From Mailhella massiliensis (GTDB lineage Bacteria; Desulfobacterota; Desulfovibrionia; Desulfovibrionales; Desulfovibrionaceae), in assembly GCF_900155525.1 (NCBI RefSeq), contig NZ_LT706952.1, positions 1,190,624-1,254,623 on the forward strand: a stretch of 64,000 nt of DNA, written 5' to 3'. The position numbers and the translations under genes were made by a program. This document shows, piece by piece, positions 19,008 to 23,552 of the stretch (the first letter of the stretch is position 1; each line of letters begins with the position of its first letter). Under the pieces are notes generated by a model that saw nothing but the letters and a program-made list of their open reading frames with translations, was not told the origin of the DNA and made no database searches.

Positions 19008-21296
19008 ATGATCCGCTTCATCAAGAAACGAGATTCGCGCGTGGTTCCTTTCGACATAGCCAAGATAGATGAGGCGATCTTTCGTGCGGCAAAAGCTCAG
19101 GGCGGCACCGACCGCGCCATGTCCCGCAATCTGGCCGATCAGGTGCTCGACATGCTCGAAGCCGAGGGCAACGACACCCCGGACGTGGAGCATGTGCAGG
19201 ATCTGGTGGAAAAGGCCCTCATCGAAGCCGGGCACGCCCGCACCGCCAAGGCGTACATTCTCTACCGCAACGAGCGCACCCGCGTGCGCGAAATGAAGAC
19301 CGGCCTCATGAACACGCTGAAGGACCTTTCCTTCACCGACGCCAAGGAGCTGGACCTCAAGCGCGAAAACGCCAACATCGACGGCGACACCCCCATGGGC
19401 ACCATGCTCCGCTACGGCAGCGAGGCGGCCAAGGCCTTCTACAAGAATTATCTGCTCTCGCCCGAATTCAGCCGCGCCCATGAGGAAGGCGACATCCATA
19501 TCCACGACCTCGATTTTCTGTCGCTGACCACGACCTGCTGCCAGATCGACATCAAGAAGCTGTTCAACGGCGGTTTCAACACCGGTCACGGTTTCCTGCG
19601 CGAGCCCAACAGCATCCAGTGCGCGAGCGCCCTGGCCTGCATCGCCATACAGTCCAACCAGAACGACCAGCACGGCGGGCAGAGCATTCCCAACTTCGAG
19701 TACGGTCTCGCTCCCGGCGTGGCCCGCAGCTTCATCAAGAACATCGACCTCGCTCTCGACATGCGCGACGCTCCAGAGGACTTCCGCAACGACGTGAAGA
19801 CCGCTCTGCGCGCCCATGCCTTCCCCACGGGGGAATACGCCTCCTTCCGTTCCATTCTTAATGAGGAAGGTCTCGCCTTCGTGCGCGGCGAACTCACGAA
19901 GCGCCTGCCTGCGGCCGAGGCCGATCATGTCATCGACAAGGCCATCACCAAGACGGACAAGGACACCTATCAGGCCATGGAAGGGCTGCTGCACAATCTG
20001 AACACCATGCACAGCCGCGCCGGCGCTCAGGTGCCCTTCAGCTCCATCAACTACGGCACGGACACCACGCCCGAAGGCCGCATGGTCATCAAGAACACCC
20101 TGCTGGCCGAAGATGCGGGGCTCGGCAACGGCGAAACGCCCATCTTCCCCATCCACATCTTCAAGGTGCGCGACGGCTACAGCTTCAACCCCGGCGACCC
20201 GAACTACGATCTGTTCAAGCTCGCCTGCCGCGTGTCCGCCAAGCGGCTGTTCCCCAACTTCTCCTTCATGGATGCGCCGTTCAACGCCCCCTACCTCAAG
20301 GGCGATGATCCCAACCATGAGGTGGCCTACATGGGCTGCCGCACCCGCGTCATGGCCAACCGCTACGACAGCGAACGCGAAACCACCTTCGGCAGAGGCA
20401 ACCTGTCCTTCACGTCCATCAACCTGCCCCGCCTGGGCCTCAAGCATCGCGGCGATGTGGAAGGCTTCTTTGAAGAATTCAACGAGAAGATCACCCTGGT
20501 CTTCGACCAGCTTCTCGAACGTCTGGAAATCCAGAGCCACAAGCGCTGCCGCAACTATCCCTTCCTCATGGGACAGGGCATCTGGCTCGATTCCGACGAT
20601 CTCGCCCCCAACGACGAAGTGGGCGAAGTGCTCAAGCACGGTACCCTGACCACGGGCTTCATCGGCCTTGCCGAATGCCTGAAGGCGCTCATCGGCGTCC
20701 ATCACGGCGAATCGGAAGAGGCTCAGGAACTGGGGCTGCGCATCGTGCGCACCCTGCGTGAACGCGCCGACGCCAAGGGAGAGGAAACCGGCCTGAACTT
20801 CACGGTCATCGCCACGCCCGCCGAAGGTCTCGCCGGCCGCTTCGTCAAATACGACCGCAAGCTTTTCGGGAACATTCCCGGCATCACCGACAGGGACTAC
20901 TACACCAACTCCTTCCATATTCCGGTGTATTTCCCCATCAACGCCTTCAACAAGCTGCGTCTCGAAGCCCCCTACCACGCCCTCACCAACGGCGGGCACA
21001 TCAGCTATGTGGAAGTGGACGGTGATCCGCTCAACAACCTCCAGGCCTTCGAGGACATCGTCAAGGCCATGAAGGAAATGGGCATAGGCTACGGTTCCAT
21101 CAACCACCCCGTGGACCGCGACCCGGTCTGCGGCTACACCGGCATCATCGGCGATGTCTGTCCCCGTTGCGGACGCCACGACGGCGAAGGCATCCCCCTT
21201 TCCGTTCTGAAACAGATCAAGGGCTACATACACGACAGCCGCACCAGCGACGAACGCAGCGAAGCCCACGACAAAATTGCCAATATCAAACTCTAA
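19008..21296 (+). CDS. nrdD: Anaerobic ribonucleoside-triphosphate reductase, large chain with a degenerate C-terminal radical loop
   Basis: NrdD reduces ribonucleotides to deoxyribonucleotides without oxygen, using a glycyl radical made by NrdG. The 762-residue chain starts with an ATP-cone regulatory domain (about 1-95, with KKRDSRVVPFDIAKIDEAIF) and a full catalytic body. Near the C-terminus the zinc-binding region reads DPVCGY and CPRCGR, so one of the four usual Cys positions is Asp. The tail then shows KQIKGY with Gly739, aligning with the family RRITGY loop, but the following residues are diverged. The adjacent small gene carries the well-conserved version. GAGAAGG precedes the ATG; the stop TAA overlaps the next Shine-Dalgarno sequence. 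Confidence 0.93.
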   Translation: MIRFIKKRDSRVVPFDIAKIDEAIFRAAKAQGGTDRAMSRNLADQVLDMLEAEGNDTPDVEHVQDLVEKALIEAGHARTAKAYILYRNERTRVREMKTGLMNTLKDLSFTDAKELDLKRENANIDGDTPMGTMLRYGSEAAKAFYKNYLLSPEFSRAHEEGDIHIHDLDFLSLTTTCCQIDIKKLFNGGFNTGHGFLREPNSIQCASALACIAIQSNQNDQHGGQSIPNFEYGLAPGVARSFIKNIDLALDMRDAPEDFRNDVKTALRAHAFPTGEYASFRSILNEEGLAFVRGELTKRLPAAEADHVIDKAITKTDKDTYQAMEGLLHNLNTMHSRAGAQVPFSSINYGTDTTPEGRMVIKNTLLAEDAGLGNGETPIFPIHIFKVRDGYSFNPGDPNYDLFKLACRVSAKRLFPNFSFMDAPFNAPYLKGDDPNHEVAYMGCRTRVMANRYDSERETTFGRGNLSFTSINLPRLGLKHRGDVEGFFEEFNEKITLVFDQLLERLEIQSHKRCRNYPFLMGQGIWLDSDDLAPNDEVGEVLKHGTLTTGFIGLAECLKALIGVHHGESEEAQELGLRIVRTLRERADAKGEETGLNFTVIATPAEGLAGRFVKYDRKLFGNIPGITDRDYYTNSFHIPVYFPINAFNKLRLEAPYHALTNGGHISYVEVDGDPLNNLQAFEDIVKAMKEMGIGYGSINHPVDRDPVCGYTGIIGDVCPRCGRHDGEGIPLSVLKQIKGYIHDSRTSDERSEAHDKIANIKL

Positions 21297-21306
21297 GGAG
21301 CGTCTC

Positions 21307-21492
21307 ATGGTTCATTGCAAATCCGATGTGGCTGCCGCCACCGACCAGATTCTCGTCGGTTCCAATGTCAAGTTCGAGCGTATCCGCCGCATCACCGGTT
21401 ACCTTGTAGGCACCCTCGACCGCTTCAACGACGGCAAGGCCGCCGAAGAACGCGACCGTGTGAAGCACTGCAGCATGGACAACTGGAAGTAA
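21307..21492 (+). CDS. Stand-alone glycyl-radical domain of anaerobic ribonucleotide reductase
   Basis: This 61-residue protein is essentially the C-terminal glycyl-radical segment of a class III ribonucleotide reductase. It has FERIRRITGYLVG with the candidate radical glycine at Gly31, then TLDRFNDGKAAEERDRVKH, which matches intact NrdD tails closely, and ends in CSMDNWK. The first 20 residues have no known motif except a Cys at position 4. TAAGGAG, which includes the nrdD stop, is its ribosome binding site, so it is coupled to nrdD. By analogy with GrcA (YfiD), the spare radical domain of pyruvate formate-lyase, it may supply the radical to the NrdD body; that role is inference. Confidence 0.85.
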   Translation: MVHCKSDVAAATDQILVGSNVKFERIRRITGYLVGTLDRFNDGKAAEERDRVKHCSMDNWK

Positions 21493-21517: not shown

Positions 21518-21556
21518 GCGGGAACGGAGCCAATCCGTTCCCGCTTTTCTTTTTCC
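21518..21556 (+). terminator. Rho-independent terminator after the nrdD unit
   Basis: An 11-pair stem (GCGGGAACGGA with TCCGTTCCCGC) and a five-base loop are followed by TTTTCTTTTT, 25 bases after the stop of the small glycyl-radical gene. Confidence 0.92.
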
Positions 21557-22133: not shown

Positions 22134-22664
22134 CTAGCGTATGATGGGACCGTTCAGGGCATCCGGCACGGCCTGCCAGCCGTTTTCCCGGGTGGCCGCC
22201 ATGTTCAGGATACGCTGATTGCGCGATCCCCGGAAACGAAGTTCCAGAGATTTCTGTTCCTCCACGAAAGGCCCGTCCACCAGAAGATCCAGCAGAGAAA
22301 GCAGCTCACGGCATTCCTGCCGCTGAACAAGCTGCTCCAGCGTGTAGCCGCTGAAGGCCATGAGATGATAACCGCGCCTTTTCAGCTCGGCGGCCAGGGG
22401 AAGCAGCGCCTCCGCCTGTTCGAAAGGCTCGCCGCCGCTGAAGGTGATACCGTGCACCAGAGGATCGCCCTGAATGCGGGCGAGAATATCCTCGGCGGAA
22501 ACCGGAGTCCCGCCCTCGAAATCCCAGGTCTGGGGATTCTGGCAGCCCTTGCAATGCATACGGCAGCCCTGAAGAAAAAGCACGAAACGGAGCCCGGGGC
22601 CGTCGACGATGGACTCCTCGATGACGCCCGCCACGCGCAGCACGGTATCCTTCAGTCCGGCCAT
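22134..22664 (-). CDS. nrdG: Anaerobic ribonucleoside-triphosphate reductase activating protein
   Basis: NrdG is the radical SAM activase that installs the glycyl radical on the reductase. The 176-residue protein has the CRMHCKGC (C-x3-C-x2-C) iron-sulfur motif at residues 34-41, the GGEPF motif near residue 77 that contacts SAM, and a C-terminal region (DLLVDGPFVEEQ, RGSRNQRI) typical of NrdG. It is transcribed toward nrdD from the opposite strand. Its ATG directly follows the stop codon of the upstream 295-residue gene, so the two are coupled. Confidence 0.95.
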   Translation of the reverse strand: MAGLKDTVLRVAGVIEESIVDGPGLRFVLFLQGCRMHCKGCQNPQTWDFEGGTPVSAEDILARIQGDPLVHGITFSGGEPFEQAEALLPLAAELKRRGYHLMAFSGYTLEQLVQRQECRELLSLLDLLVDGPFVEEQKSLELRFRGSRNQRILNMAATRENGWQAVPDALNGPIIR

Positions 22665-23552
22665 TTACGCATGTTCCTCTTCTTCTGCGGCGTCGGAGGG
22701 GGCCAGGCTGCCCGCCGTATCGTCGACACGGCCCTGAAGCCAGAACACCATATCCACATCATCGCCTTCCTTGGGCACATAGCCCTTGTGGCACACCTTC
22801 TCAGGGGCGTAGATGATGGCGTAGACCGGCTTTTCGGGATTACCGAAGGCTATGCCGAAACGGTATATCCTGATCTGTCCCTTCTCAGGACCGAACATGA
22901 AGCTGTCCACGTCGAAAATGGAGGCATGGCACTGATATTCGCTGTAATGCTCACCCAGATCCATAAGGGTTCTTCCCTTGAGGGGAAGCTTGAGCGGAGG
23001 CACGTCGAGGCGCGTCTTGGTGGGGTTGGCCTTCATCCATTCCAGAGCATGGCGCTCATAGGCCGGACCTTCCGTAACGGTCAGCTCGTCCAGAAGCGCT
23101 CGGCGGATGCCGAAGCAGAGGCCGGAAAGCACGAAGGTACAGGTCTTGCCCTTCACGTCGCCTTCCGTATCGCGGAAGAAGAGAGGATCGTAGAACCACA
23201 GACCGGGAAAATCTTCCGGTTCGGCCAGAATTTCGCCCGCATGTCCGCCCTTCCAGGCATAGGTGTCCCTGATGGTGAGCTGATTGGCGAAACCTTCCAT
23301 GAAGGGCGTCACCGCGGCGGCGGAAAGCTTGCCTTCCGGCTTGCCCACCATGAGCACGGACGTGCGCAGAAGCGACTCACTGGGCCAGGCCATGAGAATG
23401 CGCTCCACACTTTCGTTCTTCATGCCCCATACGGGACGGCTTCCGCCATGTTCCAGAGTGGTGGACATGACGCCGAGAATATCTTCAGAACCGACTCCGA
23501 GGACAAACCACTTGTCCCCCATGCTTTCGAGATGCTGCATATGTTTTTCCAT
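22665..23552 (-). CDS. Conserved-looking protein of unknown function coupled to nrdG
   Basis: I do not recognise this 295-residue protein. It appears cytoplasmic, with no signal peptide or membrane helix, a mixed globular composition, and a strongly acidic C-terminus (EEEEHA). Motif-like stretches include VLGVGSEDILGVMSTTLEHGG near the start, LWFYDPLFFRDTEGDVKG near the middle, and CHASIFDVDSFMFGPEKG near 215. Its stop codon abuts the nrdG start, which makes co-expression with nrdG very likely. Whether it acts in nucleotide metabolism or is only co-transcribed cannot be told from the sequence. Confidence 0.8.
   Translation of the reverse strand: MEKHMQHLESMGDKWFVLGVGSEDILGVMSTTLEHGGSRPVWGMKNESVERILMAWPSESLLRTSVLMVGKPEGKLSAAAVTPFMEGFANQLTIRDTYAWKGGHAGEILAEPEDFPGLWFYDPLFFRDTEGDVKGKTCTFVLSGLCFGIRRALLDELTVTEGPAYERHALEWMKANPTKTRLDVPPLKLPLKGRTLMDLGEHYSEYQCHASIFDVDSFMFGPEKGQIRIYRFGIAFGNPEKPVYAIIYAPEKVCHKGYVPKEGDDVDMVFWLQGRVDDTAGSLAPSDAAEEEEHA

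Follow-up and report, generated by a model that had tools for sequence, protein, structure and literature searches.

In glycyl-radical enzymes oxygen cuts the protein chain at the radical. The small proteins GrcA (YfiD) of E. coli and Y06I of phage T4 are spare glycyl-radical parts for pyruvate formate-lyase (PFL): small stand-alone radical domains, phage-borne as well, which are expected to act in trans together with the activase. According to the accessible portion of PMC12338860, formate production by E. coli with the PflB variant G734A is intermediate in the presence of GrcA and nil in its absence. The available text of Andorfer et al. 2021 (PMC8683613) describes spare parts as validated only for pyruvate formate-lyase, adding that they may exist for other enzymes. 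The anaerobic (class III) ribonucleotide reductases NrdD of P. copri, T4, S. thermophilus and T. maritima share with the locus described here the catalytic chain, the ATP-cone, the active-site region, the cysteine cluster and a nearby activase gene. In contrast to these enzymes, the radical loop and the tail following it are placed here on a separate gene, and the built-in copy appears decayed or is missing. In the P. copri structure an active-site network is bound by Tyr712 and Arg719 (PMC11226230, extracts). A reductase in two chains, the second one with C-terminal domains, is also known from class II as NrdJa/NrdJb (PMC9669993, extracts); however, that is a B12 enzyme from which no glycyl-radical site has been split off. 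A solo NrdD radical domain was not described in the literature searched, which comprised the accessible parts of PMC9531940 and PMC12288474 among others and lay mostly outside subscription journals.

The window (the whole stretch of 64,000 nucleotides that was analysed) carries the following features:

19008–21296, + strand: nrdD, large catalytic chain of a class III ribonucleotide reductase, 762 amino acids (Pfam and fold match)
21129–21170, + strand: presumed zinc-site cysteines C708...C718-x-x-C721 on the large chain, invariant in 30 aligned NrdDs
21177–21293, + strand: probably decayed glycyl-radical domain (GRD) tail of the large chain, HDGEGIPLSVLKQIKGYIHDSRTSDERSEAHDKIANIKL, with Gly739; 1.3 bits against the GRD profile, collinear with intact GRDs
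21294–21300, + strand: TAAGGAG, the nrdD stop overlapping the Shine–Dalgarno sequence of the small gene (sequence)
21307–21492, + strand: gene of a solo glycyl-radical domain, 61 amino acids, Gly31 (Pfam, P. copri match, dN/dS)
21385–21402, + strand: radical loop RRITGY of the small protein (sequence, loose motif scan)
21518–21556, + strand: perfect 11-bp inverted repeat (21518–21528 and 21534–21544) followed by TTTTCTTTTT, terminator-like (pairing checked)
22134–22664, − strand: NrdG-like radical SAM activase, convergent with nrdD (Fer4_12, 1.4e-40; Radical_SAM, 6.4e-8)

The large chain belongs to the catalytic family of class III NrdD (Pfam NRDD, PF13597, E 2.3e-187; ATP-cone, 8.6e-23) and has the barrel fold and the active-site cysteines of this class. 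Its fold matches that of P. copri NrdD with Z 42.4 and an rmsd of 2.4 over 534 residues, a match that places the body of the protein and barely covers the tail. C177 and C444, which we take to be the active-site cysteines, are invariant across 30 NrdDs, and C708, C718 and C721 presumably serve as the zinc site, as in known NrdD structures. The chain thus comprises an ATP-cone, a barrel and a cysteine cluster; a functional-looking radical loop is absent. The C-terminus reads ...VLKQIKGYIHDSRTSDERSEAHDKIANIKL and includes Gly739, and in place of an intact radical loop on the same chain (at least 91.9 bits against the GRD profile) there is a stretch scoring 1.3 bits. The activase of class III enzymes is encoded in the genome by the gene at 22134–22664, which is named NrdG here because its homologues adjoin nrdD at other loci. 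Directly upstream of this nrdG-like gene lies an open reading frame of 295 residues (22665–23552, − strand) for which Pfam gives no match at 0.001.

The small protein supplies the end of the family model that the large chain lacks: the Pfam NRDD profile has 562 positions, of which the large chain reaches 546, and the small protein spans 530–562. The open reading frame at 21307–21492 encodes 61 amino acids including FERIRRITGYLVGTLDRFNDGKAAEERDRVKH. Its match to the radical domain is not due to chance, given E values of 5e-8 against Pfam and 2.4e-7 against residues 707–740 of Prevotella copri NrdD. It corresponds to the P. copri GRD over loop and tail and has the equivalents of both Tyr712 and Arg719, namely Tyr32 and Arg39. 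A loose scan of the window for the radical-loop motif returned RRITGY at 21385–21402 and two matches in unrelated frames. The TAA stop of nrdD (21294–21296) opens the sequence TAAGGAG, 10 bases separate this stop from the ATG at 21307, and the terminator-like inverted repeat stands directly 3' of the small gene. Coordinates and sequence therefore confirm the 61-residue gene with RRITGY and Gly31 ten bases past the nrdD stop that had been reported in an earlier note on this DNA, as well as the location of the stop within the Shine–Dalgarno sequence; from this shared sequence we infer that the translation of the two genes may be coupled. As in GrcA/YfiD, the glycyl-radical loop is located on a small stand-alone protein (61 amino acids, RRITGY). 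However, a Pfam search with E up to 0.1 returned only NRDD and no match to PF01228 (the Gly_radical family of PFL), which puts the small protein outside the GrcA/Y06I family; it is a member of the NrdD family instead. Unlike GrcA/YfiD and Y06I, solos of the present kind often stand beside a chain without the domain, in the nrdD operon. The loop core of the small protein is under strong purifying selection: dN/dS, calculated from mutually non-independent pairs of 14 same-genus genomes, is 0.022 for the solo core versus 0.098 for the catalytic part (last 380 codons) and 0.138 for the tail of the large chain.

The tail of the large chain was compared with radical domains using a GRD profile built from 33 intact NrdDs. 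The latter score 92–101 bits (being the training set of the profile), and the solo GRDs have a median of 90 bits (185 open reading frame instances, corresponding to 140 distinct cores). The tails of 57 split chains score from −2.1 to 11.4 bits, in a set that contains four fragments, some near-identical pairs and three tails that gave no profile match and were scored 0. When the profile of 18 long tails is compared with that of 14 intact GRDs, a collinear alignment with probability 81.5 results, and phmmer aligns the large chain along P. copri NrdD as far as the C-terminus of the latter. Judging by these two alignments, the tail is probably a worn-out GRD. The alignment of Gly739 with the family radical loop proposed in the earlier note is thus upheld as homology, with the qualification that the loop would be a decayed copy. 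The absence of an arginine three residues before the glycine applies to KQIKGY of the present chain and does not hold as a general trait, since several same-genus chains have KRLKGY or KRIKGY. Of the equivalents of Tyr712 and Arg719 the Mailhella tail has the tyrosine only, the position of P. copri Arg719 being occupied by Ser747 in an ungapped count. In the AlphaFold2 model residues 737–762 of the large chain have pLDDT below 50; the control, an intact relative from Ruminiclostridium sufflavum (L215) with the same alignment rows, is equally poor in its GRD (residues 740–770), so that the low values do not set the split chain apart from an intact one.

If Gly739 carried the normal radical, the small protein could be a spare part only, which just repairs oxygen-cut NrdD in the manner of GrcA. 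The loop around Gly739 is near background against the GRD profile, it has Ser747 where P. copri has Arg719, and the radical position (found by an ungapped count from the CGR motif) is occupied by glycine in 15 of the 57 split tails and by another residue in 42, all of which speaks against this reading. In its favour, Gly739-Tyr740 (KGY) is retained in 19 of 19 genomes of the Mailhella-type clade. This retention, together with the dN/dS of ~0.14, makes a role for the tail possible, even one as the radical site. Conservation of the glycine in relatives, which the earlier note had proposed to look at, is accordingly seen in these 19 genomes and breaks down in the other three of the 22 family genomes (G019, G026 and G029), whose large chains have no glycine at the radical position. 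Taken over the 57 tails, the case for Gly739 as the working radical site is weakened, and within the Mailhella-type clade it may still apply. The opposite reading, with the small protein as the radical carrier, gains from the relatives whose large chains have no glycine at this position.

The pairing of the two genes was followed in a family survey of 59 genomes, with the large chain defined by at least 55% identity. Both genes are found in 22 genomes and neither in 36; the large chain never occurs alone, and the solo occurs alone in a single genome (G010, 76% complete). Most of the 36 genomes with neither gene carry another type of NrdD with ~32% identity. In one same-genus genome of 99% completeness (G011) both the large chain and the solo GRD were not found. 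In all 22 genomes with the large chain a solo GRD lies no more than 900 bp downstream; absence of the small gene from close relatives, which the earlier note had named, in combination with a radical formed on Gly739 alone, as fatal to its idea, is thus not seen. The GRD profile, this 22/22 pairing and the glycine-less relatives agree with its claim of a separate radical domain, putatively the functional one, on the small protein.

Both open reading frames together make a complete NrdD, and introns or inteins are known to interrupt phage nrdD genes (PMC3653736, in part), which raises the question of a single broken or recoded gene, produced by a sequencing error, a frameshift, stop readthrough, an intron or an intein. 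The relatives are difficult to reconcile with such an origin. The spacing from stop to ATG among same-genus genomes is 10, 11, 12, 13 or 15 bp and covers all three frames, which also disposes of the one continuous frame considered in the earlier note. In the viral and genome scans described below (best 80 matches each), 44 split genes have a same-strand solo in their locus; for 40 it lies no more than 600 bp downstream, and these 40 solos are distributed over the frames as 18, 13 and 9. The stop codons of the 57 split chains are mixed (TAA 36, TAG 16, TGA 5), and in many of these chains a purine-rich ribosome site and an ATG follow immediately after the stop; by a loose rule applied without a chance control, a stretch resembling a ribosome site precedes a start codon in 122 of 127 solo frames. 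The large chain often has a tail of its own, and solos are also found well away from nrdD and in viral records that lack a catalytic match. Frameshift, readthrough and intron were rejected on the three frames and the mixed stops, and assembly error because 22 genomes agree. A broken gene in any of these forms is hardly credible.

The split arrangement is not confined to the genus. Among the best 80 of at least 560 relatives in the genome scan there are 54 solos and 26 full NrdDs, and an NrdD catalytic segment is present in the same locus for 40 of these 54 solos and absent for 14. Among the matches listed, Bacillota and Succinivibrionaceae also have the split pair, in most cases with nrdG as the following gene; a same-strand nrdG is the next gene in 32 of the 40 close split–solo pairs (L195, where nrdG is convergent, is not counted among the 32). 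In Succinivibrio, Anaerobiospirillum, Butyricicoccus, Oscillospiraceae and several Bacilli the large chains end past the cysteine motif and the radical loop is unrecognisable. A tree built from 86 catalytic chains (53 split, 33 full) requires 8 changes of the split/full label, at least 5 of them forced by starred branches; the tree was made by a quick method and carries a long-branch warning, its full chains come from the same scan and are not a fair sample, and it does not separate gains from losses. A class sample of 79 genomes was taken around a Butyricicoccus genome chosen for being split. It has an NRDD match in 67 genomes, and the split pattern was found in none of the 78 genomes besides this centre (the matches in G104 and G130 are cut off and allow no verdict). 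Split NrdD is therefore uncommon in the one class sampled. In one genome of this sample, G180, a solo is present together with an intact NrdD at a different site. Solos of a second architecture, extended at the N-terminus by ~50 residues ahead of the loop, were observed in bacterial and viral loci (L248 9896–10162, L275 2342–2617, L246, L250, L271, L134, L153, L167 and L183), and Pfam recognises only the NRDD end in two such extended solos.

Phages carry the domain as well. The best 80 of 193 relatives in the viral scan comprise 73 solos and 7 full NrdDs, the ranking by match length possibly favouring solos; a second short match in L163, chance by eye, is not counted among the 73. In 27 of 30 hand-picked viral records the solo is present without a catalytic match and in 3 both are present (29 records of 33.8–165 kb and one of 21.6 kb, possibly fragments; the three with both were known beforehand). 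A search of annotated records with the small protein returned 26 phages and 29 plasmids; in two of these 55 records, a C. difficile plasmid and a Vibrio phage, a long NrdD gene accounts for the match, which falls inside it or at its end. In the genus, several prophage-like copies are preceded by what resembles a tail gene by eye, with an integrase nearby. At L113 (5995–6138) a phage solo GRD is situated between a small holin-like membrane protein and an endolysin-like gene, both named by eye. The small protein of the window is thus one case of a wide family that is also present in phages. Phages often interfere with host metabolism, and the 27 of 30 records without a catalytic match could be taken to mean that the phage copies are decoys, which would tie up NrdG or NrdD and hold back DNA synthesis in the host instead of helping it. 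Against this, the phage solos keep the whole loop and tail, all 185 solo instances have a lysine 13 positions past the glycine (a residue not demanded by the search pattern), and in one viral record (L174 5484–6168) nrdG overlaps the solo GRD, with no NrdD catalytic match in 48 kb, an arrangement that fits supply. We consider decoys quite improbable.

Further solos are located among genes of oxygen defence. In 15 of 19 same-genus genomes an additional solo is part of a cluster with desulfoferrodoxin, rubredoxin and flavodiiron genes (at two of these loci, L072 and L093, the cluster is cut by the contig edge). In R. flavefaciens ATCC 19208, which has an intact NrdD, a solo with an N-terminal extension stands immediately before rubrerythrin, and a short solo has the same position in Ca. 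Crickella equi. The solo of G180, a genome that likewise has an intact NrdD, comes after genes for rubredoxin and a flavodiiron protein. When 204 loci were searched for homologues of the R. flavefaciens rubrerythrin, the R. flavefaciens and Ca. Crickella equi cases were the only ones obtained. By eye and within ~2.5 kb, oxygen-defence neighbours are absent around the second solos of two Succinivibrio genomes and around two further solos of an Anaerobiospirillum genome. The oxygen-cluster solos look as a spare part for an oxygen-cut enzyme would look, and a repair function, the other role suggested in the earlier note, gains from them, two having an intact NrdD in the genome. A spare-part role is likely for solos in genomes with intact NrdD and unlikely for the copy linked to nrdD; as a full account of the small protein, with Gly739 as the normal radical, it is improbable.

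Mailhella massiliensis, a gut bacterium, has a genome of 3.47 Mb (99.37% complete) with one NRDD catalytic chain and five solo GRDs. A search of this genome for two families, PF02867 (class I/II catalytic) and NRDD, gave no PF02867 match. PF02867 is also absent in 13 of 14 further genomes, all of which were picked for holding a solo and some of which, being drafts, may miss genes. Succinivibrio dextrinosolvens DSM 3072 and S. faecicola each have one GRD-less NrdD, of the split type only, with two solos and no class I/II match. A full-length NrdD besides the split one is found in five of the 14 genomes (G061, G062, G066, G067 and G070), and R. flavefaciens (G072) combines its intact NrdD with a solo. 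In the family survey a second NrdD of the other type (~32% identity) occurs in G019 and G026, both without the radical-position glycine in the large chain. Given their second NrdD, G019, G026 and these five genomes may depend mainly on a reductase other than the split enzyme. Further solo copies were noted at L063 (4980–5324, − strand) in the window genome and at L068 (4971–5225, − strand) in G018.

Most probably, and with considerable confidence on our part, the locus encodes a two-chain NrdD, in which NrdG would place the radical on the small protein, and the small protein would work in trans and could be replaced after oxygen damage. The large chain would keep the nucleotide-binding, active-site and cysteine-cluster parts and would have lost its own working radical loop, and the 61-residue protein would be the glycyl-radical subunit. 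The latter may dock at the usual site of the built-in domain, where NrdG would abstract hydrogen from Gly31 and the radical would pass in trans from the small protein to the active-site cysteine. After a cut by oxygen at Gly31 only the small protein would have to be replaced, a new protein of 61 residues being cheaper than a new chain of 762, and the extra solo copies of oxygen-defence clusters and phages may supply the replacements. Docking, radical transfer and replacement are proposed here from sequence comparison. The accessible text of PMC11226230 describes the GRD of P. copri as disordered with dATP, which makes a detachable domain mechanically plausible. For the family as a whole we incline, by a narrow margin, to a broader picture: the NrdD GRD would be a mobile, exchangeable radical subunit, borne by phages and oxygen-defence clusters and acting on host NrdD in trans, which has repeatedly let hosts lose the built-in domain and so produced obligate two-chain reductases with a radical part that is disposable after oxygen damage.

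The family is a concrete spare-part candidate for an enzyme of DNA-precursor synthesis, in the case of the window in a genome that yielded no further ribonucleotide reductase. The case goes further than repair, as the built-in part is gone in many relatives. In phages it would be a very small gene that directly feeds DNA synthesis.
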